A stretch of DNA of 64,000 bases from Streptomyces sp. R44 (GTDB taxonomy: Bacteria; Actinomycetota; Actinomycetes; Streptomycetales; Streptomycetaceae): positions 5,270,001 to 5,334,000 of the forward strand of contig NZ_CP163444.1 of assembly GCF_041053105.1 (NCBI RefSeq), written 5' to 3'. Below, in pieces: positions 27,063 to 63,136 of this stretch. Position 1 is the first letter of the stretch. Every line of letters starts with the position of its first letter. Below the pieces are notes generated by a model, which was not told the DNA's origin, searched no databases, and saw only the letters and a program-made list of their open reading frames with translations. Both the position numbers and the translations under genes were made by a program.

Positions 27063-27409
27063 TTTCCGGCCGGACGGAGACGGGGAACGGCGCCGGACGG
27101 ACGTGACCGGCGCCGTACGAAGGCCGAGAACCGCCTCGAACACGCTCGCTCGTCCGTCCGGCCCACCGCCGTCCCACGTCCGGCCCAGCGCCCGGCGCGT
27201 CGCCTCCCGCGCCCTGTCCGGGCACCCCGCGTCCGCGGTATAACCGGCGGTACCGGGCCGAACGCCCCCGGTCGCCTCCGTCGGCCGGTTCGCGACGATC
27301 CGATAACGACTCATGAACGGGTCTTTAACTGACATCTACGCGCGTTACGATCGCCGCGAAACCAGCGCCGGAAGAGGCGCTTTCGGTCAGTCTTGAAGGG
27401 ACCCTCCTC
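27063..27409 (+). other. Intergenic region: terminator hairpin, then BMP promoter
   Basis: The 347-base gap begins with a hairpin ACGGCGCCGG (27087-27096) / CCGGCGCCGT (27107-27116), probably ending the M20 transcript. The middle (27120-27320) shows no gene or strong repeat. The right end holds the promoter region for the BMP lipoprotein: TACGAT (27346-27351) as a possible -10, overlapped by the CTACGCGCGTTA motif at 27336-27347. GAAGGG (27395-27400) is the ribosome-binding site. Confidence 0.6.
27336..27347. promoter_or_regulatory. Nucleoside-regulon palindrome (BMP gene)
   Basis: CTACGCGCGTTA is a copy of the CTACGCGCGTAG palindrome with a degenerate last two positions. It touches the TACGAT -10 candidate of the BMP lipoprotein gene, so a bound protein would block the promoter. 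This is one of six such copies in the window, each at a nucleoside-metabolism unit. Confidence 0.65.
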
Positions 27410-28468
27410 TTGCGCCGGATCACCAGGATCACGACCGTGGGCATCGCCTCCGCGGCGCTCGCCCTGTCCGTCACCGCGTGCGGCAAGTCGTCGAACGACA
27501 CGAGCTCCAGCTCCAGCTCGACCGCGGGCGCCGTCAAGGCCGCCATCGCGTACGACATCGGCGGCCGCGGCGACCAGTCGTTCAACGACGCCGCCTTCGC
27601 CGGCCTGCAGAAGGCCGAGAAGGAGCTCGGTGTCAAGGGCTCCGAGGCCGAGCCGTCGCAGGGTGAGAGCGACGCCGACAAGGTCGCGCGTCTGACCTCC
27701 CTCGCCCGCGCCGGCAACAACCCGGTCATCGGCGTCGGCTTCTCCTACGCCCCGGCCATCGCGAAGGTCGCCAAGTCCTTCCCGAAGACCACGTTCGGCC
27801 TCATCGACGACACCTCGGTGACCGCCCCGAACATCGCCAACCTCGTCTTCAACGAGGAGCAGGGCTCCTACCTGGCCGGCGTCGCCGCCGCCAAGGCGTC
27901 CAAGTCCGGCACGGTCGGCTTCATCGGCGGTGTCGAGGTTCCGCTGATCAAGAAGTTCGAGGCGGGCTTCACCCAGGGCGTCAAGGACACCAACCCCAAG
28001 GCGAAGGTGCTCACCCAGTACCTGACCCAGCCGCCGAACTTCGACGGCTTCTCGAAGCCCGACCTCGGCAAGGCCGCCGCGCAGGGCCAGCTCGACAAGG
28101 GCGCCGACGTGATCTACGCCGCCGCCGGTCTCGCCGGCGCCGGTGCCATCGAGGCCACCGCCACCGCGGGCAAGTGGGCCATCGGCGTCGACTCCGACCA
28201 GTACAACCAGGCGGGTCTGGCCTCGTACAAGGACCACATCCTGACCTCGGTCACCAAGGACGTCTCCGGCTCGGTCTTCAACGTGATCAAGTCGGTCAAG
28301 GACGGCAAGCCGCAGACCGGTGAGATCCGCTACGGCCTCGCCACCAACGGCGTCGGCCTGGCCGACTCCAACCCGGCGTACATGAAGATGACGGACCTCA
28401 TCGCCGCGGTGGACAAGGCGAAGAAGGACATCGTCGACGGCAAGATCACGGTCAAGACCGCTCCGTAA
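27410..28468 (+). CDS. BMP family nucleoside-binding lipoprotein
   Basis: This 352-residue lipoprotein uses a TTG start (27410) 9 bases after GAAGGG. Its signal peptide ends in lipobox VTAC. The BMP/Med domain follows: KAAIAYDIGGRGDQSFNDAA, NPVIGVGFSYAPAIAKVAK, VGFIGGVEVPLIKKFEAGF and WAIGVDSDQY. BMP proteins with downstream RbsA-type ABC genes are nucleoside importers (BmpDEFG/YufNOPQ type). It is the extracellular receptor of the ABC system encoded by the next three genes. A hairpin after the stop may raise its level over the ABC genes. Confidence 0.95.
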   Translation: MRRITRITTVGIASAALALSVTACGKSSNDTSSSSSSTAGAVKAAIAYDIGGRGDQSFNDAAFAGLQKAEKELGVKGSEAEPSQGESDADKVARLTSLARAGNNPVIGVGFSYAPAIAKVAKSFPKTTFGLIDDTSVTAPNIANLVFNEEQGSYLAGVAAAKASKSGTVGFIGGVEVPLIKKFEAGFTQGVKDTNPKAKVLTQYLTQPPNFDGFSKPDLGKAAAQGQLDKGADVIYAAAGLAGAGAIEATATAGKWAIGVDSDQYNQAGLASYKDHILTSVTKDVSGSVFNVIKSVKDGKPQTGEIRYGLATNGVGLADSNPAYMKMTDLIAAVDKAKKDIVDGKITVKTAP

Positions 28469-28495
28469 GGACACCCAGGTCACGACCTGAGCCCG

Positions 28496-28533
28496 GGCCC
28501 GGCGTCCGGTGGCACCCCCACCGGACCCGGGCC
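28496..28533 (+). terminator. Hairpin between receptor and ABC genes
   Basis: GTCCGGTGG (28504-28512) pairs with CCACCGGAC (28518-28526), extended outward by GGCCCGG (28496-28502) and CCGGGCC (28527-28533). It lies 28 bases past the BMP stop, where receptor genes often have a partial terminator that lowers expression of the following transporter genes. Confidence 0.65.
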
Positions 28534-28573
28534 TCGGCCCCATTCCCGTACGGGTTTTCATTTTTCGGCAGCG

Positions 28574-28585
28574 CTACGCGTGTAG
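28574..28585. promoter_or_regulatory. Nucleoside-regulon palindrome (ABC operon)
   Basis: CTACGCGTGTAG, one mismatch from the CTACGCGCGTAG consensus, lies in the gap between the BMP gene and the ABC ATPase gene. It indicates a second regulated promoter inside the cluster. It abuts the ATG at 28586, which argues against that ATG being the true start. Confidence 0.65.
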
Positions 28586-30294
<1,709 letters not shown>

Positions 30295-30298
<4 letters not shown>

Positions 30299-31410
30299 AG
30301 AAGATCGACAAGGACAAGCTGATCATCGGGGCCGCAGGCCCCGTGCTCGCGCTGGTCTCGTCCTTCGTGCTCACCGTCCTGGTGCTGCTCGCGACGGGCC
30401 TCGACCCGATCGAGCCGATCCGTCTGATGATCGAGAACGCCGGGTACTCCGACGTCCAGGTCCTGATCGTCAACTACACCGGAATCCTCTATCTGGCGGC
30501 CCTGGGTGTGGCCATCGGCTTCCGGATGAACCTCTTCAACATCGGCGTCGAGGGCCAGTACCGCCTCGCCGCGATGGTCTCGGCGCTGGTCGGCGCGGCC
30601 GTCGACCTGCCCGGTCCGCTGCACATCCTGCTGATCGTGGTCGTGGCCATCGCGACCGGTGCGATCTGGGCCGGTATCGCGGGCATCCTGAAGACCACCC
30701 GCGGTGTCTCCGAGGTCGTCTCCACGATCATGCTCAACGCCATCACCACCTCCCTGGTGGCCTGGCTGATCCTCCCGAAGAACTTCGGCGTCCAGCCCGC
30801 CGGCTCCAACGACCTCACCACCGGTCAGATCCCCGAGTCCGGCTGGTTCCCCGGCATCGACATGGGCGACGGCGGTGAGATCTACGGCTTCACCTTCGTC
30901 GCGCTGGCGCTCGGCGTCGTCTACTGGTTCGTCATCAACCGCACCCGCTTCGGCTTCGACCTGCGCGCCACCGGTGAGAGCGAGTCCGCGGCCCAGGCCA
31001 GCGGCGTCGACGCCAAGAAGATGATCCTCACCGCGATGCTGATCTCGGGTGGCCTCGCCGGTCTGGCCGGCATGCCGATCCTGCTCGGCGAGTCGCACAC
31101 GTACAGCCTCGCGTTCCCGGTCGGCGTCGGCTTCACCGCCATCACCGTCGCCCTGCTCGGCCGCAACCACCCGGTCGGCATCCTCTTCGCCGCCCTGCTC
31201 TTCGCGTTCCTCGAGAAGGCGTCCTCCAGCCTGGACATCGCGGGGTACCCGAAGGAGATCACGCAGATCATGCAGGGCATCATCGTGATCGCCGTGGTCG
31301 TCTCCTACGAGCTCGTCCGCCGTTACGGCACCCGCCGCCAGCAGCAGAAGGTCGGCGAGGAGCTCGCCGCCGGCGGCGCCATCAAGACCGACAAGGAGGT
31401 CTCGGCATGA
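30295..31410 (+). CDS. ABC transporter permease (nucleoside import)
   Basis: This 371-residue membrane protein of the BPD_transp_2 type has about nine helices. The family signature is present: FRMNLFNIGVEGQYRLAAM early, then LRATGESESAAQASGVDAKK in the cytoplasmic coupling loop. It overlaps the ATPase stop by four bases (ATGA) and overlaps the next permease the same way, so the transporter genes are co-translated. Confidence 0.95.
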
Positions 31411-32669
31411 GCACCGGCACCGTCGCCAAGCCGAGCGCCGCGCCCAAGAAGGCCGGACGCCGCAAGCTGACCTGGCCCTGGATCCTGCTGATCGTCGCGG
31501 CCGGCCTCGTCCTCTTCTCGTTCGTCCGCGCGGTCTCCGGGGCCGACGACCTCACCTCCGTCGGCCAGATCTCCGGCGCGCTCCAGCTCGCCGTGCCGAT
31601 CGCCATGGCCGGTCTCGGCGGTCTGTGGGCCGAGCGCGCGGGCGTCGTGAACATCGGCCTCGAAGGCATGATGATCCTCGGCACCTGGTTCGGCGCCTGG
31701 GCCGGCTACCAGTGGGGCCCGTGGACGGGTGTCGTCGTCGGCATCCTCGGCGGCGCTGTCGGCGGTCTGCTGCACGCGATCATCACGGTCACGTTCAACG
31801 TGAACCACATCGTCTCCGGTGTGGCGATCAACATCCTCGCGGTCGGCTTCACCCAGTACCTGTCGAACTTCACCTTCGCCGAGGCCGAGGGCGGCTCCTC
31901 CAAGCAGTCCCCGCGCATCGACAAGATCACCGACATCACCATCCCGGGACTCTCGGACTGGCTGATCGACCTCCAGCAGAAGCACTGGTTCCTGATCTCG
32001 GACCTCGCCGGCATCCTCGGCGGCCTGGTCACCCACCTGTCGCTGCTGACGATCGTGGCCGCCCTGCTCATCCCGGCCACCTGGTGGCTGCTCTGGCGCA
32101 CGTCCTTCGGCCTGCGCCTGCGCTCCTGCGGTGAGAACCCGGTCGCGGCCGAGTCGCTGGGCGTCAACGTCTACAAGTACAAGTACATCGCCGTCGTCGT
32201 CTCCGGCGGTCTCGCCGGCCTCGGCGGCGCCTTCCTCGCGATCGTCTCCACCGGCATCTACCAGGAGGGCCAGACCGGCGGCCGCGGTTACATCGGTCTC
32301 GCCGCGATGATCTTCGGCAACTGGATGCCCGGCGGCATGGCGCTCGGCGCGGGCCTCTTCGGCTTCACCGACAGCCTCAAGATCCGTGGCGGCGCCGAGA
32401 ACGTCCACGCGCTGCTGCTGCTCGTCGCGGTGCTCCTGGTGATCGCCGCCGCGTGGCAGCTGTACAAGAAGAAGTACTTCTCCGCGGTCGCCTCCGCGAT
32501 CTTCTCCGCCGGCTTCTTCATCTGGTACTTCGTCACCGACGAGGTCCCGAGCCAGTTCGTCGACGCCGCCCCGTACGTCACCACCCTGCTCGTGCTCGCC
32601 CTCTCGGCGCAGCGCCTGCGGATGCCGAAGGCGGACGGTCTGCCGTACCGCAAGGGCGAGGGCAAGTGA
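31407..32669 (+). CDS. ABC transporter permease (nucleoside import)
   Basis: This 420-residue second permease of the heterodimer has ten or so helices. LGGLWAERAGVVNIGLEGMM and RLRSCGENPVAAESLGVNVY are the matching family motifs. ATG 31407 overlaps the first permease by four bases. Its stop overlaps the GTG of cytidine deaminase (GTGA), tying uptake to catabolism. Confidence 0.95.
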   Translation: MSTGTVAKPSAAPKKAGRRKLTWPWILLIVAAGLVLFSFVRAVSGADDLTSVGQISGALQLAVPIAMAGLGGLWAERAGVVNIGLEGMMILGTWFGAWAGYQWGPWTGVVVGILGGAVGGLLHAIITVTFNVNHIVSGVAINILAVGFTQYLSNFTFAEAEGGSSKQSPRIDKITDITIPGLSDWLIDLQQKHWFLISDLAGILGGLVTHLSLLTIVAALLIPATWWLLWRTSFGLRLRSCGENPVAAESLGVNVYKYKYIAVVVSGGLAGLGGAFLAIVSTGIYQEGQTGGRGYIGLAAMIFGNWMPGGMALGAGLFGFTDSLKIRGGAENVHALLLLVAVLLVIAAAWQLYKKKYFSAVASAIFSAGFFIWYFVTDEVPSQFVDAAPYVTTLLVLALSAQRLRMPKADGLPYRKGEGK

Positions 32670-33070
32670 CGCCCGCCGCTGCGAAGCCCGACTGGGACCT
32701 GCTCCGGGAGACCGCCCGCGAGGCGATGTCCCACGCGTACGCCCCGTACTCGGGCTATCCGGTCGGCGCGGCGGCCCTCGTGGACGACGGGCGGGTGATC
32801 TCCGGCTGCAACGTGGAGAACGCCTCCTTCGGCCTCGGCCTGTGCGCCGAGTGCGGGCTCGTCTCGCAGCTCCAGGCGACCGGCGGCGGCCGGCTCACGC
32901 ACTTCGTGTGCGTGGACGGCCGCGGCGAGTCCCTGGTCCCGTGCGGGCGCTGCCGGCAGCTCCTCCACGAGTTCGGGGGCCCCGAGCTCGTCCTGGAGAC
33001 CCCGGCCGGGTTCCTGACCCTGGCGGAGATGCTCCCGCAGGCCTTCGGCCCTGACCACCTCGCGAAGTAG
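32666..33070 (+). CDS. cdd: Cytidine deaminase
   Basis: This 134-residue, homotetrameric-type cytidine deaminase converts (deoxy)cytidine to (deoxy)uridine in the cytoplasm. The zinc site is complete: CNVENASFGLGLCAECG (Cys and the catalytic Glu) and PCGRCRQLLHEF (two Cys). N-terminal YAPYSGYPVGAAAL is typical. GTG 32666 overlaps the permease stop. It is the last gene before a compound hairpin and the deoA promoter. Confidence 0.96.
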   Translation: MTPAAAKPDWDLLRETAREAMSHAYAPYSGYPVGAAALVDDGRVISGCNVENASFGLGLCAECGLVSQLQATGGGRLTHFVCVDGRGESLVPCGRCRQLLHEFGGPELVLETPAGFLTLAEMLPQAFGPDHLAK

Positions 33071-33155: not shown

Positions 33156-33174
33156 TCGCTCCCCCTTTCCCCCT

Positions 33175-33186
33175 CTATGCGCGTAG
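33175..33186. promoter_or_regulatory. Nucleoside-regulon palindrome (deoA)
   Basis: CTATGCGCGTAG, within TCTATGCGCGTAGA, has one mismatch from the consensus. It ends 14 bases before the deoA ATG. TAGAAA (33184-33189) could be the -10, so the site would overlap the core promoter. Confidence 0.7.
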
Positions 33187-33200
33187 AAAGAGGCACCACC

Positions 33201-34478
33201 ATGGACGTCATCTCCGTCATCCGCACCAAGCGGGACAAGGGCGAGCTGAGCCCCGAGCAGATCGACTGGGTCATCGACGCGTACACCCGCGGCGAGGTCG
33301 CCGACGAGCAGATGTCCGCCCTGGCCATGGCCATCCTGCTCAACGGCATGAACCGCGCGGAGATCGCCCGCTGGACCGCCGCGATGATCGCGTCTGGCGA
33401 GCGCATGAACTTCGACTCCCTCTCCCGCCCGACCGCCGACAAGCACTCCACCGGCGGAGTCGGCGACAAGATCACCCTCCCGCTCGCCCCGCTCGTCGCC
33501 GCCTGCGGCGCGGCCGTGCCGCAGCTCTCCGGCCGCGGCCTCGGCCACACCGGCGGCACCCTCGACAAGCTGGAGTCCATCCCGGGCTGGCGCGCGCTGC
33601 TGTCCAACGAGGAGATGCTGCACGTCCTCGACACCACGGGCGCGGTCATCTGCGCGGCGGGCGACGGCCTGGCCCCCGCCGACAAGAAGCTGTACGCGCT
33701 CCGCGACGTGACGGGCACGGTCGAGGCGATCCCGCTGATCGCCTCGTCGATCATGTCGAAGAAGATCGCCGAAGGCACCGGCTCCCTGGTCCTCGACGTC
33801 AAGGTCGGCACCGGCGCCTTCATGAAGAACATCGAGGACGCGCGCGAGCTGGCGCGGACGATGGTCGGTCTCGGCACGGACAGCGGCGTGAAGACGGTCG
33901 CGCTCCTCACCGACATGGCGACCCCGCTCGGCCTCACCGCGGGCAACGCCCTGGAGGTCCGCGAGTCGGTCGAGGTCCTCGCGGGCGGCGGCCCGAAGGA
34001 CGTCGTCGACCTGACGGTCGCCCTCGCGGCCGAGATGCTCGCCGCCGCCGGCATCAAGGACGCCGACCCGGCGAAGGCCCTCGCGGACGGCTCGGCCATG
34101 GACGTCTGGCGCCGGATGATCGCGGCCCAGGGCGGCGACCCGGACGCGACCCTCCCGGTCGCCCGCGAGCAGCACGTCGTCACGGCCCCGTCGACCGGTG
34201 TCCTGACCCGCCTCGACGCCTACGACATCGGCATCGCCGCCTGGCGCCTGGGCGCGGGCCGCGCCCGCAAGGAGGACCCGGTGCAGGCGGGCGCGGGCGT
34301 CGAGCTCCACGCGAAGCCGGGCGACACGGTGACGGCGGGCCAGCCGCTGCTCACCCTCCACACGGACACCCCGGAGAAGTTCGACTACGCCCTGAAGTCG
34401 CTGACGGCCACGTGGGACATCGCGGCTCCGGGCACGGAGTTCACCCCGAACCCGATCGTCCTCGACCGCATCGCCTGA
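33201..34478 (+). CDS. deoA: Thymidine phosphorylase
   Basis: This 425-residue pyrimidine nucleoside phosphorylase splits thymidine or deoxyuridine with phosphate into base and deoxyribose-1-phosphate. Signature segments are DKHSTGGVGDKITLPLAPLV, SGRGLGHTGGTLDKLESIPG and LVLDVKVGTGAFM. The length is normal. ATG 33201 follows AAAGAGG (33187-33193). It is a separate unit with its own regulon palindrome, directly after the import/cdd operon. Confidence 0.97.
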   Translation: MDVISVIRTKRDKGELSPEQIDWVIDAYTRGEVADEQMSALAMAILLNGMNRAEIARWTAAMIASGERMNFDSLSRPTADKHSTGGVGDKITLPLAPLVAACGAAVPQLSGRGLGHTGGTLDKLESIPGWRALLSNEEMLHVLDTTGAVICAAGDGLAPADKKLYALRDVTGTVEAIPLIASSIMSKKIAEGTGSLVLDVKVGTGAFMKNIEDARELARTMVGLGTDSGVKTVALLTDMATPLGLTAGNALEVRESVEVLAGGGPKDVVDLTVALAAEMLAAAGIKDADPAKALADGSAMDVWRRMIAAQGGDPDATLPVAREQHVVTAPSTGVLTRLDAYDIGIAAWRLGAGRARKEDPVQAGAGVELHAKPGDTVTAGQPLLTLHTDTPEKFDYALKSLTATWDIAAPGTEFTPNPIVLDRIA

Positions 34479-38587: not shown

Positions 38588-38649
38588 GTCACGAACGTAG
38601 GACGGTCCGCTTCATGCGTCCAATGCACGGAACTGCTGTAATCGTTCCC

Positions 38650-41251: not shown

Positions 41252-41340
41252 GCGGGCAGGCTAGGGCCTGTCCGACAATTCCCGCCGGGTCCGTGCCGTC
41301 CCCGCCCCGCCACGAGAAAAACGGCGCCGCACGGGGTGTT

Positions 41341-41362
41341 CTACGCGCGTAGGGGCTAGAGT
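41341..41362 (+). promoter_or_regulatory. Nucleoside-regulon palindrome in the add promoter
   Basis: CTACGCGCGTAG (41341-41352) is a perfect palindrome. TAGAGT (41357-41362) is a good -10 whose start point falls on the A of ATG 41369, so the mRNA should be leaderless. The palindrome occupies the -35/-10 spacer, the classic place for a repressor. Confidence 0.8.
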
Positions 41363-41368: not shown

Positions 41369-42523
41369 ATGACGAGCCAGACCCCCAACGTCCCCACCGC
41401 GGACCAGATCCGCCGTGCCCCGAAGGTGCTGCTCCACGACCACCTCGACGGCGGACTGCGCCCCGGCACGATCATCGAACTCGCCCGGGAGCAGGGCTAC
41501 GAGCAGCTCCCCGAGACGGAGCCCGACAAGCTCGGCATCTGGTTCCGCGAAGCCGCCGACTCCGGCTCCCTGGAACGGTACCTGGAGACCTTCGCGCACA
41601 CCTGCGCCGTCATGCAGACCCGGGACGCCCTCTTCCGCGTCGCCGCCGAGTGCGCCGTCGACCTGGCCGAGGACGGCGTCGTCTACGCCGAGGTGCGCTA
41701 CGCCCCCGAGCAGCACCTGGAGGGCGGTCTCAGCCTCGAAGAGGTCGTGGAGGCCGTCAACGAGGGCTTCCGCGAGGGCGAGCGGCGGGCCAGGGCCAAC
41801 GGCCACCGCATCCGGGTCGGCGCCCTGCTGACCGCCATGCGGCACGCCGCCCGCGCCCTGGAGATCGCCGAACTCGCCAACCGCTACCGCGACACCGGTG
41901 TCGTCGGCTTCGACATCGCGGGCGCCGAGGCCGGCTACCCGCCCACCCGCCACCTCGACGCCTTCGAATACCTCAAGCGGGAGAACAACCACTTCACGAT
42001 CCACGCGGGCGAGGCCTTCGGGCTCCCCTCGATCTGGCAGGCGCTCCAGTGGTGCGGTGCCGACCGGCTCGGCCACGGCGTCCGGATCATCGACGACATC
42101 GAGGTCGCCGACGACGGCTCGGTCCGCCTCGGCCGCCTCGCGGCCTACGTGCGGGACAAGCGCATCCCGCTCGAGATGTGCCCCTCCTCCAACCTCCAGA
42201 CCGGCGCCGCCGCCTCCTTCGCGGAGCACCCCATCGGTCTGCTCCGCACCCTCCATTTCCGGGCCACGGTCAACACGGACAATCGCCTCATGAGCGGGAC
42301 GAGCATGAGCCGGGAATTCGAGCTGCTGATCGACGCATTCGATTACACGCTCGACGACATGCAGTGGTTCACGGTCAATGCGATGAAATCAGCGTTCATT
42401 CCTTTCGATGAACGACTCGCCATGATCAATGAGGTCATCAAGCCCGGATACGCCGAGCTCAAGTCCGAATGGCTGTTCCAGCAGACCGCGACGACCAGCG
42501 AGTCTTCCCGTACGGAGGGCTGA
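41369..42523 (+). CDS. add: Adenosine deaminase
   Basis: This 384-residue protein converts (deoxy)adenosine to (deoxy)inosine. Metal and active-site segments are [15 protein letters not shown] (HxH), [13 protein letters not shown] (catalytic Glu), RLGHGVRI (His) and [11 protein letters not shown] (Asp). Length and order are normal. Its product feeds the purine nucleoside phosphorylase at 62240-63043. Both carry the same promoter palindrome. Confidence 0.97.
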
Positions 42524-52207: not shown

Positions 52208-53101
52208 CTAGTACGAGGAGCCGCTCGCGCCCAGCGAACCCGTGGGGTGCCAGACCGTCTTCGTCTCCAGGAACGCGGTCATGCGGTCCGTGCCCGGGGA
52301 CTCGGCGAAGTCCTCCTCGGTACGGGGGCGCAGGACGCGCTTCAGGTTGTCCGCCGCCGCGATCTCCAGGTCACGGGCCAGACCGGTGTCCGCGCCCGTC
52401 AGGTCGATCGCGTTGACGTCCTGGTGGGCCGCGAGGTGCGGGCCCATCTCGGCGGCCTTGCCGGAGAGGATGTTGACCACGCCGCCGGGGAGGTCGGAGG
52501 TGGCCAGGACCTCGCCCAGGGAGAGGGCGGGGAGCGGGGACTTCTCCGAGGCGATGACCACCGCCGTGTTGCCCGTCGCGATCACCGGGGCGATCACCGA
52601 GACGAGGCCCAGGAAGGACGAGTCCTGCGGGGCCACGACCGTGACGACGCCCGTAGGCTCCGGGGTCGACAGGTTGAAGTACGGGCCGGCGACCGGGTTC
52701 GCGCCGCCCACGACCTGGGCGATCTTGTCGGTCCAGCCCGCGTACCAGACCCAGCGGTCGATCGCCGCGTCGACGACCACGGCCGCCTTCGACTTCGACA
52801 GGCCCTCCGCGTCCGCGACCTCGCGGACGAACTGGTCCCGGCGGCCCTCCAGCATCTCGGCCACGCGGTAGAGGATCTGGCCGCGGTTGTACGCGGTCGC
52901 GCCCGCCCAGCCGCCGAAGGCCTTTCGGGCCGCGACGACCGCGTCACGCGCGTCCTTGCGGGAGGAGAGCGGCGCGTTCGCCAGCCACTTGCCCTTCGAG
53001 TCGCTCACCTCGTACACCCGGCCGCTCTCGGAGCGGGGGAACTTGCCCCCGACGTACAGCTTGTAGGTCTTGAAGACACTGAGGCGCGTCACATCAGACA
53101 T
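52208..53101 (-). CDS. Aldehyde dehydrogenase-like protein, short, no catalytic Cys
   Basis: This 297-residue protein shows only the N-terminal part of the ALDH fold: KTYKLYVGGKFPRSESGRVY, WAGATAYNRGQILYRVAEML and VVTVVAPQDSSFLGLVSVIA. The catalytic Cys segment is absent and the Glu motif (LELGG) is replaced by DNLKRVLRPRT. Its ATG (53101) overlaps the full ALDH gene by 8 bases. It resembles the second, incomplete ALDH domain of two-domain ALDH16 proteins and may be its partner subunit (inference). Confidence 0.88.
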   Translation of the reverse strand: MSDVTRLSVFKTYKLYVGGKFPRSESGRVYEVSDSKGKWLANAPLSSRKDARDAVVAARKAFGGWAGATAYNRGQILYRVAEMLEGRRDQFVREVADAEGLSKSKAAVVVDAAIDRWVWYAGWTDKIAQVVGGANPVAGPYFNLSTPEPTGVVTVVAPQDSSFLGLVSVIAPVIATGNTAVVIASEKSPLPALSLGEVLATSDLPGGVVNILSGKAAEMGPHLAAHQDVNAIDLTGADTGLARDLEIAAADNLKRVLRPRTEEDFAESPGTDRMTAFLETKTVWHPTGSLGASGSSY

Positions 53102-54530
53102 CGAGGTAGGCCTCCAGACCGTGGCGGCCGCCCTCGCGGCCGAAGCCCGACTCCTTGTAGCCGCCGAAGGGCGAGGTCGGGTCGAACTTGTTGAACGTGT
53201 TGGCCCAGACGACACCGGCCCGGAGCTTGCTGGCGACCGCGAGGATGCGGGAGCCCTTCTCCGTCCAGATGCCCGCCGACAGGCCGTACTGGCTGTTGTT
53301 GGCCTTCGCGACCGCCTCGTCGGGCGTACGGAAGGACAGCACCGACAGGACCGGGCCGAAGATCTCGTCGCGGGCGATCCGGTGCGCCTGAGTGACGTTC
53401 GTGAAGAGCGTCGGGGCGAACCAGTAACCGGCCGACGGGATCTCGCACGCGGCGGTCCAGCGCTCGGCGCCCTCCGCCTCGCCCTGCTCCACGAGCGAGG
53501 TGATGCGGGCCAGCTGCTCCGAGGAGTTGATGGCGCCGATGTCGGTGTTCTTGTCGAGCGGGTCGCCGAGGCGGAGCGTCGACAGGCGGCGCTTCAGGCT
53601 GTCGAGCAGCTCGTCCTGGATCGACTCCTGGACGAGGAGGCGCGAGCCCGCGCAGCAGACCTGGCCCTGGTTGAAGAAGATGCCGTTGACGATGCCCTCG
53701 ACGGCCTGGTCGATCGGGGCGTCGTCGAAGACGATGTTGGCGCCCTTGCCGCCCAGTTCGAGGGTGACCTTCTTGTGCGTACCGGCGACGGAGCGCGCGA
53801 TCGACTTGCCGACCGCCGTCGAACCGGTGAAGGCGACCTTGTTCACGTCCGGGTGCTCGACCAGCGCGGCGCCCGTCTCCCCGTACCCGGGAAGGATGTT
53901 GACGACGCCCTTCGGCAGCCCGGCCTGGCGGCAGATGTCCGCGAAGAACAGGGCGGAGAGCGGGGTCGTCTCGGCCGGCTTCAGGACGACCGTGTTGCCG
54001 GTCGCGAGCGCGGGGGCGATCTTCCACGCCAGCATGAGCAGCGGGAAGTTCCACGGGATGACCTGGCCGGCCACGCCGAGCGGCTTCGGGTTCGGCCCGT
54101 AGCCGGCGTGGTCGAGCTTGTCGGCCCAGCCCGCGTAGTAGAAGAAGTGCGCCGCGACCAGGGGGAGGTCCGCGTCGCGGGTCTCCTTGATCGGCTTGCC
54201 GTTGTCCAGGGTCTCCAGGACGGCCAGCTCACGGCTGCGCTCCTGGATGATCCGGGCGATGCGGAAGAGGTACTTGGCGCGCTCGGAGCCGGGCAGCGCC
54301 GACCACTTCTCGAAGGCCTTGCGGGCCGCCTTCACCGCGCGGTCGACGTCCTCGGCGCCCGCCTGGGCGACCTCGGCGAGGACCTCCTCGCTGGACGGGG
54401 AGACGGTCTTGAAGACCTTGCCGTCGGCCGCGTCGACGAACTCGCCGTCGATGAACAGGCCGTAGCTCGGCGCGATGTCGACGATCGAACGCGACTCCGG
54501 TGCCGGTGCGTACTCGAATGCAGATGCCAT
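53094..54530 (-). CDS. Aldehyde dehydrogenase
   Basis: This 478-residue protein is a complete ALDH: IPWNFPLLMLAWKIAPALAT, FTGSTAVGKSIARSVA (NAD loop), LELGGKGANIVFDDA (catalytic Glu), NQGQVCCAGSRLLV (catalytic Cys) and EIFGPVLSVLSF. It starts 5 bases after deoC ends, so it is co-transcribed with deoC. DeoC releases acetaldehyde, so oxidation of acetaldehyde to acetate is the natural role (inference). Confidence 0.94.
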   Translation of the reverse strand: MASAFEYAPAPESRSIVDIAPSYGLFIDGEFVDAADGKVFKTVSPSSEEVLAEVAQAGAEDVDRAVKAARKAFEKWSALPGSERAKYLFRIARIIQERSRELAVLETLDNGKPIKETRDADLPLVAAHFFYYAGWADKLDHAGYGPNPKPLGVAGQVIPWNFPLLMLAWKIAPALATGNTVVLKPAETTPLSALFFADICRQAGLPKGVVNILPGYGETGAALVEHPDVNKVAFTGSTAVGKSIARSVAGTHKKVTLELGGKGANIVFDDAPIDQAVEGIVNGIFFNQGQVCCAGSRLLVQESIQDELLDSLKRRLSTLRLGDPLDKNTDIGAINSSEQLARITSLVEQGEAEGAERWTAACEIPSAGYWFAPTLFTNVTQAHRIARDEIFGPVLSVLSFRTPDEAVAKANNSQYGLSAGIWTEKGSRILAVASKLRAGVVWANTFNKFDPTSPFGGYKESGFGREGGRHGLEAYLDV

Positions 54531-54535: not shown

Positions 54536-55495
54536 TCAGTCCACCGTCACGTAATCGGGGCCGGAGTAACGGCCGGTCGCCAGCTTCTGGCGCTGCATCA
54601 GCAGGTCGTTGAGCAGGCTGGAAGCGCCGAAGCGGAACCAGTGGTTGTCCAGCCAGTCCTCACCCACGGTCTCGTTGACGAGAACCAGGAACTTGATCGC
54701 TTCCTTGGTGTTGCGGATGCCGCCGGCCGGCTTCACGCCGATCTGCACGCCGGTCTGGGCGCGGAAGTCGCGCACGGCCTCCAGCATGAGGAGGGTGTTC
54801 GCCGGGGTGGCGTTGACCGCGACCTTGCCGGTCGAGGTCTTGATGAAGTCCGCGCCGGCCATCATGCCGAGCCAGGAGGCGCGGCGGATGTTGTCGTACG
54901 TGGACAGCTCGCCGGTCTCGAAGATCACCTTGAGGCGGGCGCGGTCGCCGCACTCCGCCTTGATCGCGGCGATCTGCTCGAAGACCTCCAGGTACCGGCC
55001 GGCGAGGAAGGCGCCACGGTCGATGACCATGTCGATCTCGTCGGCGCCGGCGGCGATGGCGTCGGCGGTGTCGGCCAGCTTCACGGGGAGCGCGGCGCGG
55101 CCGGCCGGGAAGGCGGTGGCGACCGAGGCGACCTTGACGCCCGAGCCCGCGACGGCGGCCTTGGCGGTGGCCACCATGTCGGGGTAGACGCAGACGGCGG
55201 CCGTCTTCGGGGTCGTGCGGTCGGTCGGATCGGGGTTGACGGCCTTGGCGGCGAGCGCCCGGACCTTGCCCGGGGTGTCCGCGCCTTCGAGCGTCGTCAG
55301 GTCGATCATGGAAATGGCCAGGTCGATGGCGTACGCCTTGGCCGTGGTCTTGATCGAGCGGGTGCCGAGGGACGCGGCGCGCGCCTCCAGGCCGACGGCG
55401 TCGACGCCGGGCAGCCCGTGGAGGAAGCGGCGCAGCGCACTGTCGGACGTGGTCACGTCGGCGAAAGCGGATGCTGCGGATGCAGTGGTGGGCAT
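54536..55495 (-). CDS. deoC: Deoxyribose-phosphate aldolase
   Basis: This 319-residue aldolase cleaves deoxyribose-5-P to glyceraldehyde-3-P and acetaldehyde. The Schiff-base Lys is in MMAGADFIKTSTGKVAVNAT, and the second Lys in QIGVKPAGGIRNTKEAIKF. DEIDMVIDRGAFLAGRY is typical. The length is that of the long (eukaryote-like) DERA subfamily. ATG 55495 or GTG 55501 can start it. It is first gene of deoC-ALDH-ALDH-like, with the regulon palindrome just upstream. Confidence 0.96.
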   Translation of the reverse strand: MPTTASAASAFADVTTSDSALRRFLHGLPGVDAVGLEARAASLGTRSIKTTAKAYAIDLAISMIDLTTLEGADTPGKVRALAAKAVNPDPTDRTTPKTAAVCVYPDMVATAKAAVAGSGVKVASVATAFPAGRAALPVKLADTADAIAAGADEIDMVIDRGAFLAGRYLEVFEQIAAIKAECGDRARLKVIFETGELSTYDNIRRASWLGMMAGADFIKTSTGKVAVNATPANTLLMLEAVRDFRAQTGVQIGVKPAGGIRNTKEAIKFLVLVNETVGEDWLDNHWFRFGASSLLNDLLMQRQKLATGRYSGPDYVTVD

Positions 55496-55514
55496 GGTCA
55501 CCAGTCGAGCATAT

Positions 55515-55526
55515 CTACGCGCGTAG
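55515..55526. promoter_or_regulatory. Nucleoside-regulon palindrome (deoC operon)
   Basis: CTACGCGCGTAG, perfect, within TCTACGCGCGTAG. On the minus strand TAGATA at its edge (55517-55512) is a plausible -10, so the operator overlaps the core promoter and the mRNA leader would be very short. Confidence 0.8.
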
Positions 55527-55594
55527 CGACCTGTACAGGGGCGCCCCTTCATGGAGCCCGAGGTCACAGGGGGTCCGACGGCGTGGTGACTCCT

Positions 55595-57358: not shown

Positions 57359-57467
57359 TCCGTACGGGAGCCCGCGCCTGATCCGTACGGGATCCAAGAC
57401 CGATCCGTACGGGATCCAAGACCGATCCGTACCGGACCCGCGCCCGATCCGTACCTGATCGCGCGCC
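57357..57467 (+). repeat. Five tandem copies of a 22-bp iteron-like repeat
   Basis: Units start GATCCGTAC at 57357, 57380, 57402, 57424 and 57446. Copies 2 and 3 (57380-57401, 57402-57423) are identical. Each unit core GATCC-GTAC-G-GGATC is itself nearly palindromic. The array begins at the stop codon of the surface-protein gene and lies 120 bp before the sortase gene. Confidence 0.85.
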
Positions 57468-57587
57468 AGGTCCCGCACTCCTCCCCCTGCCCTGACCCGA
57501 GCAGGTGACACCCCACCCCAGGCCGGTCGCCGCGTCCCGCGCGGCGGCCGGCCACACCCCTTCCCCCAGCCCGCCCGGAGCCGTCCC

Positions 57588-58211: not shown

Positions 58212-58246
58212 GCCCCCCACCCGCCCCCTGAGGCACAATCGGCGGC

Positions 58247-58924
58247 ATGACGACCCCCGAGCCCAGCCACGAGCCGAGCCCCGAGCAGCCGTCCGCAGGA
58301 AAGACCCCCGCGGGACAGACCCCCGCCGACAAGGTCTTCCGGTCGCCCCTCGGGGTCGCGAGCGGGGTGTTCCTGCTGCTCCTCACGGCCTTCTTCGCCG
58401 GGGACTCGATGGTCCGCGGCGAGGGCCGCACCCCCTGGATCGCGCTCGCGATCCTCGTCCTCGCCGTCCCGCTGATCGTCGCCTTCACGATCCGGCCCGC
58501 CGTGTACGCCAACGACGACCGGCTCCGGATCCGCAACCCGTTCCGGTCGATCGTGCTGCCCTGGGCCACGGTCGCCGACGTCCGCGCCGGCTACTCCAGC
58601 GAGGTCTTCACGCAGGAGGGCGCCAAGTACCAGCTGTGGGCGATCCCCGTCTCGCTGCGCCAGCGGAAGAGGGCCGCCCGCCAGGCCGCCCGCGCCTCCC
58701 AGGACGACCCGCACGGCCGTACCTCCGTCACCGCCGACGTCCGGGACGCCGCCTCCCGCACCGCCCCCAGCGACAAGACCATCGCCGACCTGCGCGAGCT
58801 CGCCGAGCTGCGCGCCGGGACCCCGGGCGCGCAGGGCGAGCCGGAGGTGCGCTGGGCGTACGAGATCGTCGCCCCCGCGCTGGCCGGGCTGCTGCTCCTC
58901 GTCATCCTGATCGCGACGGGCTGA
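58247..58924 (+). CDS. PH domain-containing membrane protein
   Basis: This 225-residue protein has two N-terminal helices (about residues 35-85), a bacterial PH-like segment (VYANDDRLRIRNPFRSIVLP, WATVADVRAGYSSEV), a charged loop, and a C-terminal helix (VAPALAGLLLLVILIATG). CACAAT (58234-58239) as -10 would place the transcript start on ATG 58247 (leaderless). Function unknown. Confidence 0.88.
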   Translation: MTTPEPSHEPSPEQPSAGKTPAGQTPADKVFRSPLGVASGVFLLLLTAFFAGDSMVRGEGRTPWIALAILVLAVPLIVAFTIRPAVYANDDRLRIRNPFRSIVLPWATVADVRAGYSSEVFTQEGAKYQLWAIPVSLRQRKRAARQAARASQDDPHGRTSVTADVRDAASRTAPSDKTIADLRELAELRAGTPGAQGEPEVRWAYEIVAPALAGLLLLVILIATG

Positions 58925-58969
58925 GCCGCACCCCCGCCTCCCGGCCGGATGTCCCGGGGCCGAGCCCCG

Positions 58970-60121
58970 TCAGGGCGCTCCTTCCCACACCAGGAGCATG
59001 TGGCCGCCCAGCCACGCCGAGGAGAGCGCCGCACCCGTGAGGACGAGGGCGGCGACGTGCCACCGCGCGCGGGCGATCCCCGCGGCGAGCGGCAGCAGCA
59101 GCGGGAAGCCCGGCAGCAGGAAGCGGGCCCGCGGGAACCAGACGCCGCCGCTGCCGAGGACCACGAGCAGCAGCACCCCCGTGAACACGAGCAGCGGCAG
59201 CGGCTGCCGGTCCGCGAGACAGCACACGTACAGCGCGGCGGACACCAGCAGCACCAGCGACACGACGGTCAGGAAGAGCGGCGGGGACGCGCTGTGGAGG
59301 AGGTACCGGCGCAGCGCCCGCAGGGTCACCGCGCCGCCGTCCCACTGGTTCCCCCAGCGCCGCTGCACCTCGAAGTAGCCGTCCCAGCGCCCCCGGACGA
59401 GCGCCACCCACCCGACGTACCCGAGCCAGCCGAGGGGCGCCGTCAGGGCGGCGGCCAGGGCCCGCCGCTCGCGCCGGGCGGCGAGGAGCCCCGCCACGCC
59501 GACCGCCACCGCGACCGCCAGCCCCGTCGGCCGGGTCAGCCCGGCGGCCACCGCGAGGCCTGCGGCCCACGCCCAGCGCCCGCCGAGCACCGCGTACAGC
59601 GCCCAGGCGGCGAGCGCCGTGAACAGCGACTCCGTGTACCCCATCCACTGCACGGCGGCCACCGGCGAGGCGCCCCACAGGACGGCGAGGACCGTGCCGG
59701 CCCGACGCCCGTGCAGCCGGTCGCCGACCGCGAACACCCCCCAGGCGGCGAGCAGCGAGCACACCACCGCGAGCCCGAGGGCGACGGAGGCGCGGGAGCC
59801 GGGGAGGACCGCCGAGAGGAGCCGGACGAGCCCGGGGAAGAGCGGGAAGAACGCCAGGTTCCGGGGGGAGGACGGCTGGGTCGTGTACCCGTGCCCGGCG
59901 ATGTCCAGGTACCAGAGCGAGTCCCACGTACGGGCGAGCAGCGGCCACAGGCCGTGCCCCTTCAGATGCGCCCAGCGGGCGAGCACCGCAAGACCCAGGA
60001 GCCGTACCGTCAGGAATCCGAGCAGCGCCGGGGCCGCGCGCCGCAGCGCGCCGCCTTCCACGGCCTCGGGGGCGGCGGCGGTACGGGGGGCGGGGACGTA
60101 CGGCACGGGGGTGACGGACAC
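58970..60121 (-). CDS. PIG-V-like polyprenol-dependent mannosyltransferase
   Basis: This 383-residue protein has ten or so membrane helices. WDSLWYLDIAGHGY early, LAFFPLFPGLVRLLSAVLPG, and MGYTESLFTALAAWALYA match the PIG-V/GT-C pattern. Acidic residues in the first outer loop (WDS) are typical of GT-C catalysis. Acceptor unknown; wall glycan or glycoprotein modification is possible. Confidence 0.85.
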   Translation of the reverse strand: MSVTPVPYVPAPRTAAAPEAVEGGALRRAAPALLGFLTVRLLGLAVLARWAHLKGHGLWPLLARTWDSLWYLDIAGHGYTTQPSSPRNLAFFPLFPGLVRLLSAVLPGSRASVALGLAVVCSLLAAWGVFAVGDRLHGRRAGTVLAVLWGASPVAAVQWMGYTESLFTALAAWALYAVLGGRWAWAAGLAVAAGLTRPTGLAVAVAVGVAGLLAARRERRALAAALTAPLGWLGYVGWVALVRGRWDGYFEVQRRWGNQWDGGAVTLRALRRYLLHSASPPLFLTVVSLVLLVSAALYVCCLADRQPLPLLVFTGVLLLVVLGSGGVWFPRARFLLPGFPLLLPLAAGIARARWHVAALVLTGAALSSAWLGGHMLLVWEGAP

Positions 60122-60198
60122 CGGGTCACCCTGGCGCGCGCCCCCGGCGCGCGGTCCACGCTTTACGTCACGTGCCGTAGGGGGTTCACCCGGACGGG

Positions 60199-60236
60199 CG
60201 AGGGCCGGTACGGATTACCTTCCGTACCGGCCCTCG
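60199..60236 (-). terminator. 16-bp perfect hairpin terminator
   Basis: CGAGGGCCGGTACGGA (60199-60214) pairs with TCCGTACCGGCCCTCG (60221-60236), 6-nt loop. It lies 82 bases past the phospho-sugar mutase stop and upstream of the PIG-V-like gene, ending the PNP-mutase transcript. Confidence 0.75.
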
Positions 60237-60250
60237 GCGGTCCTCCGGGC

Positions 60251-60310
60251 CGATGTCCTGTCGGCCTGATGTCCCGCGCCCCGATGTCCTGCGCCCCGAC
60301 GTCCTGCGCC
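60251..60310. repeat. Four tandem 15-bp repeats
   Basis: Units near CCGATGTCCTGCGCC at 60251, 60266, 60281 and 60296. They lie just past the phospho-sugar mutase stop. No coding or regulatory role is evident. Confidence 0.75.
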
Positions 60311-60318
60311 CCGGCGGC

Positions 60319-61971
60319 CTACAGCCCGGCGGCCTCGGACAGATCCCGCTTGATCGCGGCGAGGATCTCGGCGCCCGTCGCGCGGGCGGTCGCCAGCTCG
60401 CTGCCGTCGCCGACCGGGACGACGACCTCCAGGTAGCACTTGAGCTTGGGCTCGGTGCCGGAGGGACGGACGATCACCCGGGCCTTGTAGTCGCCCTCCA
60501 GGTGGTAGCGGAGGCCGTCCGTCGGCGGCAGGGACTCGGTGCCCTTCGTCAGGTCCTCGGCGGAGACGACCGTCAGACCGGCGAGCCGGACCGGGGGACG
60601 CTCGCGGAGCGTGGCCATCGCGGCGGCGATGATCCCCAGGTCCTCGACCCGTACGGACAGCTGGTCCGTGGCGTGCAGGCCGTGCGCCACCGCCAGGTCG
60701 TCGAGCAGGTCGGTGAGGGTGCGGCCCTGCTCCTTGAGCACCGAGGCCAGCTCGGTGACGAGCAGCGCCGCCGTGATGCCGTCCTTGTCGCGGACGCCCT
60801 CGGGGTCGACGCAGTAGCCGAGCGCCTCCTCGTAGCCGTACCGCAGTCCGTCGACGCGGGCGATCCACTTGAAGCCGGTCAGGGTCTCCTCGTAGCCGAC
60901 GCCCGCCGCCTCGGCGATGCGGCCGAGGAGGGACGAGGACACGATCGACTCGGCGAAGACGCCGGTCGCGCCCTTGTGCACCAGGTGCGCGGCGAGCAGC
61001 GCGCCGACCTCGTCGCCGCGGAGCATCCGCCAGCCGCCCTCGACGTCCGCGTCGGGCACGGCCACGGCGCAGCGGTCGGCGTCCGGGTCGTTCGCGATGA
61101 CGATGTCGGGGTCCACGGCCCGGGCGGCCTCGAAGGCCAGGTCCATGGCGCCCGGCTCCTCCGGGTTCGGGAACGCGACCGTCGGGAAGGCCGGGTCCGG
61201 GTCGGCCTGCTCGGCGACGAGCGCGGGCGGCGGGAAGCCGGCCCGGTCGAACGCGGCCGTGAGGACCTCCTTGCCGACGCCGTGCATGGCCGTGTAGACG
61301 GTCCGCGCGGTCCGGGGGGAGCCGGGGGTCAGGACGGCGTCCGTACGCTCCAGGTAGGCCGCCAGGACCTCGTCGCCGAGGGTCTCCCAGCCGGTCTCGG
61401 GCCGGGGCACGTCGTGCAGCGAGCGGATGGCGTCGATCTCGGCGGCGATCTCGGCGTCGGCCGGCGGGACGATCTGCGAGCCGTCGCCCAGGTAGACCTT
61501 GTAGCCGTTGTCGCGCGGCGGGTTGTGGCTCGCGGTCACCTCGACACCGGCGACGGCGCCCAGATGCCTTATGGCGTACGCGAGGACGGGCGTCGGCAGC
61601 GGGCGGGGGAGGACGGCCGCGCGGAGTCCGGCGCCGGTCATCACGGCGGCGGTGTCGCGGGCGAAGTCGGCGGACTTGTAGCGGGCGTCGTAGCCGATGA
61701 CGACGAGTCCGCCCTCCTGGCCCTTCGCCTTCAGGTACGCGGCGAGGCCGGCGGCGGCCCGGATGACGACCGAGCGGTTCATCCGCATGGGTCCGGCGCC
61801 GAGCTCACCGCGGAGCCCGGCCGTGCCGAACTGCAGCGTGCCGCTGAACCGGGCGGCGAGCTCGTCGCTCGCGCCGGCCTCGATGAGTCGCGCGAGCTCC
61901 TCGCGGGTCTCGCTGTCGGGATCCTCGGCGAGCCAGGCCTGGGCCCGGGTGAGGAGGTCGTCCTGCGTCAC
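60319..61971 (-). CDS. Phospho-sugar mutase (probable phosphopentomutase/PGM2 type)
   Basis: This 550-residue alpha-D-phosphohexomutase has the phospho-Ser in VTASHNPPRDNGYKVYLGDG, the metal site in NDPDADRCAVAVPD, the sugar-binding region in GFKWIARVDGLRYGYEEALG, and a phosphate loop in VIVRPSGTEPKLKCYLEVVV. TASHNPxxDNGYKVY and the length suit the PGM2 group, whose members act on ribose/deoxyribose-1-phosphate. It follows PNP on the same strand, under the regulon palindrome, so interconverting pentose 1- and 5-phosphates is the likely job (inference). Phosphomannomutase activity is the alternative. Confidence 0.93.
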   Translation of the reverse strand: MTQDDLLTRAQAWLAEDPDSETREELARLIEAGASDELAARFSGTLQFGTAGLRGELGAGPMRMNRSVVIRAAAGLAAYLKAKGQEGGLVVIGYDARYKSADFARDTAAVMTGAGLRAAVLPRPLPTPVLAYAIRHLGAVAGVEVTASHNPPRDNGYKVYLGDGSQIVPPADAEIAAEIDAIRSLHDVPRPETGWETLGDEVLAAYLERTDAVLTPGSPRTARTVYTAMHGVGKEVLTAAFDRAGFPPPALVAEQADPDPAFPTVAFPNPEEPGAMDLAFEAARAVDPDIVIANDPDADRCAVAVPDADVEGGWRMLRGDEVGALLAAHLVHKGATGVFAESIVSSSLLGRIAEAAGVGYEETLTGFKWIARVDGLRYGYEEALGYCVDPEGVRDKDGITAALLVTELASVLKEQGRTLTDLLDDLAVAHGLHATDQLSVRVEDLGIIAAAMATLRERPPVRLAGLTVVSAEDLTKGTESLPPTDGLRYHLEGDYKARVIVRPSGTEPKLKCYLEVVVPVGDGSELATARATGAEILAAIKRDLSEAAGL

Positions 61972-62057
61972 GGTGTGCCTTTCGGGGAGGGCGGGGCGGG
62001 TGCGTTCTGGTGCGGGCGGGGTGCGGGGCGTGTGCCGCTGCGCGGAGCCTTTCCCCG

Positions 62058-62205
62058 CCCCGCCCCTTCCCGAACTGGGGGCAAGCCCCCAGACCCCCGT
62101 ACGGCCTGCGGCCGTGTCCTCGAACGCCGGACGGGCTGAACTTCAGCCCGTCCGGCGTCAGGACCGGGGTCCGGGGCGGAGCCCCGGTTACGGGAAGGGG
62201 CGGGG
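62058..62205. repeat. 148-bp composite palindromic intergenic repeat
   Basis: The outer arms CCCCGCCCCTTCCCG (62058-62072) and CGGGAAGGGGCGGGG (62191-62205) are perfect complements. The centre is a 17-bp perfect stem, ACGCCGGACGGGCTGAA (62124-62140) with TTCAGCCCGTCCGGCGT (62142-62158). CGCCGGACGGGCTG is, to my recollection, a widespread Streptomyces intergenic repeat. It separates PNP from the mutase (268-bp gap, no gene) and may attenuate read-through. Confidence 0.8.
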
Positions 62206-62239
62206 GAGAGGCCCCGCGCGGCGGCACCGCCCGCGACCG

Positions 62240-63043
62240 TCAGATTCGGTCCAGGACCCGCGTCAGCAGCTCACCCATCCGGGCCGCCGAGTCGCGCCCC
62301 GCCTGCAGGACCTCTTCGTGGTTGAGCGGTTCGCCCGAGAGCCCCGCCGCCAGGTTGGTGACGAGCGAGATGCCCAGGACCTCGGCCCCGGCCTCACGCG
62401 CCGCGATGGCCTCCAGGACGGTGGACATGCCGACGAGGTCGCCGCCGAGCACGCGGACCATGTTGATCTCGGCCGGGGTCTCGTAGTGCGGGCCGGGGAA
62501 CTGGACGTACACGCCCTCCTCCAGCGTCTCGTCGACCTCCTTGCACAGCGCGCGCAGGCGCGGCGAGTACAGGTCCGTCAGGTCGACGAAGTTCGCGCCG
62601 ACGATCGGGGAGGCGGCCGTGAGGTTGAGGTGGTCGCTGATCAGGACCGGCTGGCCGGGGCGCATGCCCTCGCGGAGGCCGCCGCAGCCGTTGGTGAGGA
62701 CGACGGTCTTGCAGCCGGCGGCGACGGCGGTGCGGACGCCGTGGGCGACGGAGGCGACGCCCCGGCCCTCGTAGAAGTGGGTGCGGCCGAGGAAGACCAG
62801 CGCGCGCTTCTCACCGATCTTGTACGAGCGGACCTTGCCGCCGTGGCCCTCGACGGCCGGCGGCGGGAAGCCGGGGAGCTCGGTCACCGGGAACTCGGCC
62901 TCGGGGGCACCGAGGGCGTCGACGGCGGGCGCCCAGCCGGAGCCCATGACCAGGGCGACGTCGTGGTTCTCGACTCCGGTCAGCTCGCGAAGACGTGCGG
63001 CAGCGGCCTCGGCGGCCTCGTACGGGGTGGCAGTTGCGTTCAC
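62240..63043 (-). CDS. Purine nucleoside phosphorylase (trimeric type)
   Basis: This 267-residue enzyme splits inosine/guanosine (and deoxy forms) with phosphate. [11 protein letters not shown] is the phosphate loop. [62 protein letters not shown] and [19 protein letters not shown] follow family order. NGCGG replaces the more usual NAAGG. ATG 63043. The first gene of the PNP-mutase unit, with the regulon palindrome 82 bp upstream. Confidence 0.96.
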
Positions 63044-63106
63044 TGACTCTCTCGCCTCGGGGAGGGGGGTCCGAGGGGAGCCCCGGACGGATTTGGTACG
63101 CGAAGC

Positions 63107-63136
63107 AGCGTAGCCGGAGAATTCCTACGCGCGTAG
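63107..63136 (-). promoter_or_regulatory. Nucleoside-regulon palindrome and promoter (PNP)
   Basis: CTACGCGCGTAG (63125-63136) is a perfect palindrome. On the minus strand TACGCT (63112-63107) is a likely -10, putting the operator in the -35/spacer region. The transcript leader to the PNP ATG would be about 57 nt. Confidence 0.78.

Follow-up and report, generated by a model that had tools for sequence, protein, structure and literature searches.

In Escherichia coli, CytR and DeoR control the deo, cdd, udp and nup genes, with DeoR sensing a pentose phosphate, and PurR regulons are governed by a LacI-type protein in E. coli and by another PurR in Bacillus subtilis. Streptomycetes live by recycling soil polymers. 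A described regulator of the use of nucleic acids as food by these bacteria was not found in the open-access literature, which misses most subscription-journal papers; this is consistent with the original prediction for the DNA studied here, which knew of no published regulator. Here we analyse a palindrome at nucleoside-gene promoters of Streptomyces sp. R44 (genome G000, 8,892,027 bases) in a window, meaning the whole stretch of 64 kb at positions 5,270,001-5,334,000, that makes up 0.7% of the genome. The core of the element is the 12-mer CTACGCGCGTAG. The full element was scored as the 14-mer TCTACGCGCGTAGA, its length being 14 bp rather than the 12 bp first proposed, and a mismatch to the 14-mer is called a deviation.

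The palindrome is probably an operator at which a single transcription factor acts, most likely by repression, to control nucleic-acid scavenging in Streptomycetaceae. That a dispersed nucleoside regulon shares this operator, as originally predicted, is strongly supported, and the gene set proves much wider and reaches beyond the region. The targets would comprise secreted nucleases and nucleotidases, nucleoside import, deamination, phosphorolysis, catabolism of deoxyribose and ribose phosphates, pyrimidine-base degradation, base uptake and a single operon of purine biosynthesis, purSQL. Below, genomes compared carry G-numbers (G000 being the host of the window) and fetched loci carry L-numbers.

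Sites in the genome and in the window

Four controls were used: the reversed pattern, the shuffled window (100 shuffles), the control palindrome GATGCGCGCATC and promoters of control genes. In G000 no perfect 14-mer occurs; eight copies have one mismatch and twelve have two, against seven in all for the reversed pattern. All eight one-mismatch copies stand at nucleic-acid or nucleotide genes, namely add, deoC, the purine nucleoside phosphorylase (PNP) gene, deoA, pydC, purSQL, a purine/uracil-type permease gene (PF00860) and a secreted nuclease gene, so that the same element is found at functionally linked promoters. In the last case, a secreted nuclease-like protein (PF07510, HNH-type, with a signal peptide recognised by eye), the site and the beginning of the coding region overlap; the residues YAR encoded there are kept in four of four genomes, and neighbouring residues vary. 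The two-mismatch copies include those at the ABC importer, two secreted nucleotidases, a DUF3103 protein, the intergenic region between a MarR gene and a GH25 gene, a secreted endonuclease I (PF04231) and an ExeM/NucH-type nuclease (164.6 bits, below the cut-off of 300). Sites of related form precede ExeM/NucH-type nucleases in G077 and possibly in G150. The DUF3103 secreted protein, with a two-deviation site upstream (L531:1501, L542:5917), may be a new member. The members outside the nucleoside cluster, with one or two mismatches, make the regulon wider than the original prediction held. Copies outside the window are few, rather than many at unrelated genes: within one mismatch the 12-mer occurs 17 times in the genome, five times in the window (reversed control 30, none exact).

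The window itself bears out most of what had been read from it. All six copies lie exactly where they had been placed, and the three copies said to be perfect, at add, deoC and PNP, are the only exact copies of CTACGCGCGTAG in the genome. The original prediction found no other intergenic copy, and the sole further match within two mismatches (52645) is inside an aldehyde-dehydrogenase coding region. Scored as a 14-mer, the window has exactly five sites within two mismatches, all among the six; the BMP site has three, as does one other match (21162). The enzyme assignments stood. Curated cut-offs were exceeded for cytidine deaminase, thymidine/pyrimidine phosphorylase, adenosine deaminase, deoxyribose-phosphate aldolase and purine nucleoside phosphorylase, and the mutase and one aldehyde dehydrogenase gave matches to the expected Pfam families. 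The importer assignments are less firm, the BMP protein, the ABC ATPase and the permeases matching importer families below NCBIfam cut-offs. The features are as follows, in window coordinates; genes were called by a GC-frame script, by which starts are approximate and some open reading frames (ORFs) overextended.

27335..27348, no strand: candidate operator of the BMP gene, TCTACGCGCGTTAC, 3 deviations; form TCTACGCGCGTTA(C/A) in 27 of 27 BMP promoters
27410..28468, plus strand: BMP-family substrate-binding lipoprotein (presumed nucleoside importer), 93 bits against a cut-off of 400
28573..28586, no strand: candidate operator of the ABC importer operon, GCTACGCGTGTAGA, 2 deviations; at most 2 deviations in 22 of 23 orthologous promoters
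28664..30298, plus strand: importer ABC ATPase, start codon uncertain, below cut-off
30295..32669, plus strand: two ABC permeases, below cut-off
32690..33070, plus strand: cytidine deaminase (cdd), above cut-off
33174..33187, no strand: candidate operator of deoA, TCTATGCGCGTAGA, 1 deviation; 4 of 10 orthologous promoters
33201..34478, plus strand: thymidine/pyrimidine-nucleoside phosphorylase (deoA), above cut-off
41340..41353, no strand: candidate operator of add, TCTACGCGCGTAGG, 1 deviation; 20 of 22 orthologous promoters
41369..42523, plus strand: adenosine deaminase (add), above cut-off
52208..54530, minus strand: two aldehyde dehydrogenases downstream of deoC, profile matches
54536..55486, minus strand: deoxyribose-phosphate aldolase (deoC), above cut-off
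55514..55527, no strand: candidate operator of the deoC operon, GCTACGCGCGTAGA on the gene strand, 1 deviation; 9 of 9 deoC promoters outside the loci found through the deoC-site scan
60319..61971, minus strand: PGM/PMM-family mutase (presumed pentose-phosphate mutase), Pfam family match
62240..63043, minus strand: purine nucleoside phosphorylase (PNP), above cut-off
63124..63137, no strand: candidate operator of the PNP operon, TCTACGCGCGTAGG on the gene strand, 1 deviation; 41 of 41 orthologous promoters

Apart from these, an ORF at 18686-20251 matches the polysialyltransferase family (PF07388) and overlaps a glycosyltransferase-like ORF.

Sites outside the nucleoside cluster with at most one mismatch were compared among four genomes, covering 12 of 12 sites in G000, 9 of 9 in G211, 11 of 15 in G077 (one of the four left out being its pydC site) and 18 of 21 in G150. 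A conserved site precedes the pydC-aminotransferase-dihydropyrimidinase genes of reductive pyrimidine-base catabolism. The same holds for purS-purQ-purL, a secreted 5'-nucleotidase and the PF00860 permease in four of four genomes, and for a secreted 2',3'-cyclic-nucleotide phosphodiesterase/nucleotidase in three of four. Several function names in this wider set rest on NCBIfam matches below cut-off. The profile score of pydC, for instance, is that of N-carbamoylputrescine amidase and below cut-off; a role in pyrimidine catabolism is likelier because of its neighbours, which include a dihydropyrimidinase above cut-off. Seven of nine G211 sites match a site beside the G000 orthologue, against 2 of 14 for GATGCGCGCATC. 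Five of the seven are upstream of genes (pydC, purS, 5'-nucleotidase, permease and the rpoB leader) and two are inside coding regions; both control pairs are inside called ORFs, as are three of the five upstream sites in G000, owing to the overextending gene caller. The rpoB-leader match, GTACGCGCGTAG (L011, L226, L233 and L255; four of four genomes), was dropped because it has three deviations from the 14-mer, and is probably unrelated.

Conservation and the missing perfect palindrome

The site recurs at orthologous promoters of other streptomycetes. Exact 12-mers occur in 25 of 25 genomes of the genus including G000, at three to six each (reversed control 0 to 3), and where contigs are long they cluster mostly in one region. 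Outside the genus an exact 12-mer was found in 3 of 16 genomes, one in each, two of them in an IMP-dehydrogenase-like ORF (by eye) and one in an unassigned ORF. The exact copies inside the IMP-dehydrogenase-like ORF were set aside as probably due to chance, as were isolated exact copies near genes for a kumamolisin-type protease, a subtilase, an MFS protein, peptide/phosphate-type transporters and a HAD hydrolase. In 20 nucleoside clusters of other genera (388 kb), no site was found at one core mismatch or within two mismatches to the 14-mer. A scan of named genomes with an 18-mer from the deoC promoter gave at least 120 stretches, and the 80 listed are all from Streptomyces or Kitasatospora.

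Nine further Streptomyces clusters have the site before the BMP, ABC, add, deoC and PNP genes; this comparison covered part of the G191 cluster, the BMP gene of G139 lay outside it, and for add in G201 no site within two mismatches was among those listed. The site also stands at the ABC importer genes of relatives in L051, L058 and L059, the BMP gene being duplicated in the latter two. A tally of distinct promoters over all fetched Streptomyces loci, counting sites with at most three deviations from TCTACGCGCGTAGA, gave BMP 27/27, ABC 22/23, deoA 4/10, add 20/22, deoC 117/117 and PNP 41/41. For the wider set it gave pydC 57/59, purS 4/4, 5'-nucleotidase 3/3, cyclic phosphodiesterase/nucleotidase 3/3, permease 4/4 and GH25 16/19. 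Control promoters gave none (DeoR 0/25, perm1 0/19, ALDH1 0/110, PMM 0/51, pydAT 0/58, M20 0/4 and LysR 0/10, in sum 0/277), and lpd gave 1/36, taken as the PNP site in a short divergent intergenic region. One of the two add misses is a second add (L224) whose operon has a site further upstream, before a GntR gene; the other is that of G191. As many as 108 of the 117 deoC sites and 28 of the 41 PNP sites come from loci found via the deoC-site scan; when these loci are left out the counts are 9/9 and 13/13. Two sets are independent of the motif, the clusters fetched by ABC protein and 57 pydC loci (the best-scoring matches of two protein searches), all 57 of which have a site within two deviations.

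In spite of this conservation the perfect 14-mer was not met in the 394 genomes searched across the class, which include 40 from this genus, nor at any of 318 regulon sites. Distinct sites with an exact core number 213; a single consensus flank is seen in 202, neither flank in 11 and both in none, where about 48 with both would be expected if flanks were independent, most of the 213 being deoC sites that share ancestry. Sites with a deviant core may have both flanks, as 30 of 30 do at pydC. The place of the deviation is typical of the promoter: the left flank at deoC (G in 104, A in 7, C in 6, T in 0), the right flank at add and PNP, position 5 at deoA, 6 at purS, 7 at pydC and 11 at the permease. 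In the ABC operon it shifts between positions. At pydC the letter at position 7 is G in 33 and T in 21 of 57 sites, with at least nine changes on a quick gene tree; the remaining three have C at position 7 and two deviations elsewhere.

Operator strength is most likely held below its maximum, an upper bound on affinity that these substitution patterns suggest. We give about an even chance to the full proposal, in which one streptomycete regulator would act on everything from the digestion of extracellular DNA to the breakdown of bases and the synthesis of purines, and selection would keep every operator short of the ideal 14-bp palindrome by one base or more. Often one half-site would be free of deviations, and the other would bear a promoter-specific lesion that may change its letter over evolution and stays unrepaired. 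The perfect operator is absent at some 300 conserved sites, which would make a natural case for how selection caps operator strength.

Mode of action and candidate regulators

The positions of the sites, their conservation, the common function of the genes and the lack of a perfect operator are observed; from them we infer a single regulator, repression by it, and tuning as the cause of the imperfection. RNA polymerase would be blocked by a dimer sitting on two inverted TCTACGC half-sites, either in the core promoter or where the transcript starts, and at least one base off the ideal at each promoter would keep binding reversible. The purS site runs into the -10-like sequence TAGAAT and the deoC site into TAGATA, and the add 12-mer lies 4 nt before TAGAGT. 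The repressor of the original prediction is likewise favoured here, with position as its basis. That purSQL and a purine/uracil-type permease belong to the set hints at a signal of purine or nucleotide limitation over simple nucleoside induction; to limitation we give roughly a one-in-two chance, and a pentose phosphate inducer is a less likely signal. In an RNA-seq study of S. lividans, the accessible part of Table 3 (30 up-regulated genes) includes SCO4917 (PNP), SCO4914 (deoC) and SCO4901 (add) at log2 fold changes of 3.70, 3.24 and 2.16, with a secreted cellulase overproduced in glucose minimal medium (PMC6302529). Under this condition the rise in PNP, deoC and add needs no added nucleosides. 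No other nucleoside- or nucleotide-scavenging gene was noticed by name in Tables 1-4, as far as the accessible part of that paper goes (PMC6302529). By annotation the three genes are those with a perfect core here.

Several observations weigh against, or qualify, the reading of one repressor acting through one operator. The raw count within two mismatches in the window is 7, against 4.4 +/- 1.9 expected, and 11 of 100 shuffles reach 7; the window is not unusual in this count, and the case for the sites rests on placement and conservation. Many further relatives' loci were fetched through the motif. The site is found in only 4 of 10 deoA promoters, relatives lack it at one add promoter and at two pydC promoters, and it stands within two deviations in 15 of 19 GH25 promoters. 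No nucleotide gene was recognised beside the two-mismatch sites at 4394901, 4433295, 4990449, 6082668 and 8701969. If promoter classes are taken as the only independent units, complete absence of the perfect 14-mer has a probability of 0.077 under independent positions; this is not compelling, and the substitutions within promoters carry the imperfection argument. For a repressor simply induced by nucleosides, purSQL is an odd companion to catabolic genes, and the tie to the S. lividans genes runs through published names and numbers. No regulator was found among the DeoR, LysR, PucR-type, LacI, MarR and GntR candidates examined. The site begins at a variable distance upstream of the called start codon, some 20 to 150 nt, and activation is possible as well.

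This variable distance is what speaks for an activator site or promoter element in place of a repressor operator, an alternative we consider unlikely. The element is a near-symmetric palindrome whose better half may face either way, it lies across or ahead of hexamers that resemble a -10, and in one case it falls at the start of a coding region, all of which fit an activator poorly.

For the repressor, two proposals as to its gene were weighed, both unlikely and to the same degree. The first is a DeoR-family gene (G000 contig C1, 5335527-5336489; window coordinates 65527-66489; L061:2528-3490) that would sense a pentose phosphate as E. coli DeoR does. The window had been said to hold no LacI, GntR or DeoR gene; none was seen, although not every ORF was scanned, and this gene begins 1.5 kb beyond its right-hand end. 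It is 2.4 kb from the PNP site, and it is also near the PNP site in eight other Streptomyces compared. Orthologues of 84-90% identity occur in 15 of 15 other Streptomyces, with the first 70 residues (which contain the helix-turn-helix, HTH) identical in all 15, and the protein has a DeoRC sensor domain. However, the operator is missing from 25 of 25 distinct promoters of the gene (best 5-7 deviations), and the recognition helix SEVTVRRD is shared by 12 of the 13 orthologues outside Streptomyces that the gene caller found. Even so, neighbourhoods of orthologues outside the genus match nucleoside reference proteins in 0 of 15 cases, distant ABC ATPases excepted, and some promoters there hold GATCG repeats instead (by eye). 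The gene scores 74 for DeoR against an NCBIfam cut-off of 244, its best match being AgaR (187.5 against 260). GATCG repeats of this kind are seen in L093, L094 and L097, beside orthologues of other families that adjoin sugar-type ABC importers. SCO4920 is, by gene order, presumably the orthologue of the DeoR-family gene. In the accessible parts of two papers SCO4920 is mentioned as a DeoR-family gene, as the centre of an inferred network and as a glucose-affected gene (PMC3224704, PMC4848846).

In the second proposal the regulator is a MarR or GntR protein with a site at its own gene, either the MarR protein encoded beside the GH25 lysozyme gene or the GntR protein of G211, encoded with a second add and an MFS gene. 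At the loci where MarR is divergent from the GH25 lysozyme gene (L014, L328-L357), a site with at most one core mismatch is present in 16 of 30 and one more has two mismatches, but 13 of 30 lack it. Moreover G017, an assembly of 1140 contigs that is 99% complete, retains four exact core sites although a close MarR orthologue is missing from it (best match 41%). In G211 the site TCTACGCGCGTAAA, with one deviation, is between the MFS gene and GntR, the second add following GntR (L224:14-3100, divergent). The same intergenic region has another palindrome, CTTGTCAGACAAG, a likelier operator for the GntR protein, going by what we take to be the preference of that family. Adenosine deaminase is itself an expected target, which makes a site by this locus explicable. 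Close relatives of the GntR protein are common in Streptomyces (best 120 of 400 proteins, E 1e-20).

Other candidates were rejected. The LysR gene at 38614 lacks the site in 10 of 10 promoters. PucR-type genes seen by eye beside pyd operons of other genomes have no counterpart noticed in the G000 pyd locus, where a 552-aa ORF before pydC has no Pfam match. Among 26 LacI HTH matches in G000, none has a one-mismatch site within 1.5 kb and one has a two-mismatch copy 1.3 kb off; LacI is further disfavoured by the usual A at the third position from the centre in operators of that family. The BldD box, TNACNC-N-GNGTNA, has a central base between its halves, and the present element does not, by which it was ruled out on inspection.

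Chance, a GC-rich palindrome falling near related genes as a window total within the shuffled range would allow, is very improbable, being contradicted by conservation in orthologous promoters, by the sharing of sites between G211 and G000 and by the placement of all eight one-mismatch 14-mers.

Comparison with known circuits

The analysis supplies a definite set of genes, together with a short sequence that can serve as bait for the regulator. As with CytR and DeoR of E. coli, one circuit would cover nucleoside uptake, deamination, phosphorolysis and deoxyribose-phosphate aldolase; unlike there, the operator is different and the set also takes in secreted nucleases and nucleotidases, pyrimidine-base degradation and purSQL. 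As in PurR regulons, purine synthesis genes are joined to other nucleotide functions, but the operator differs, and PurR regulons are not known to include the deo, add and pyd genes of catabolism. The LacI-type PurR is described in the accessible part of PMC4052901. NupR of Bacillus thuringiensis, of the GntR/HutC type, offers the likeness of a dedicated regulator of nucleoside uptake; its target is narrower and its host different, in the part of that paper available (PMC9430930). XdhR of S. coelicolor acts on xdhABC and actinorhodin regulators, none of which is in the set found here, but in the accessible account it is, like the factor proposed for this palindrome, a repressor of purine metabolism in the same genus, and one that is responsive to ppGpp (PMC6627660).

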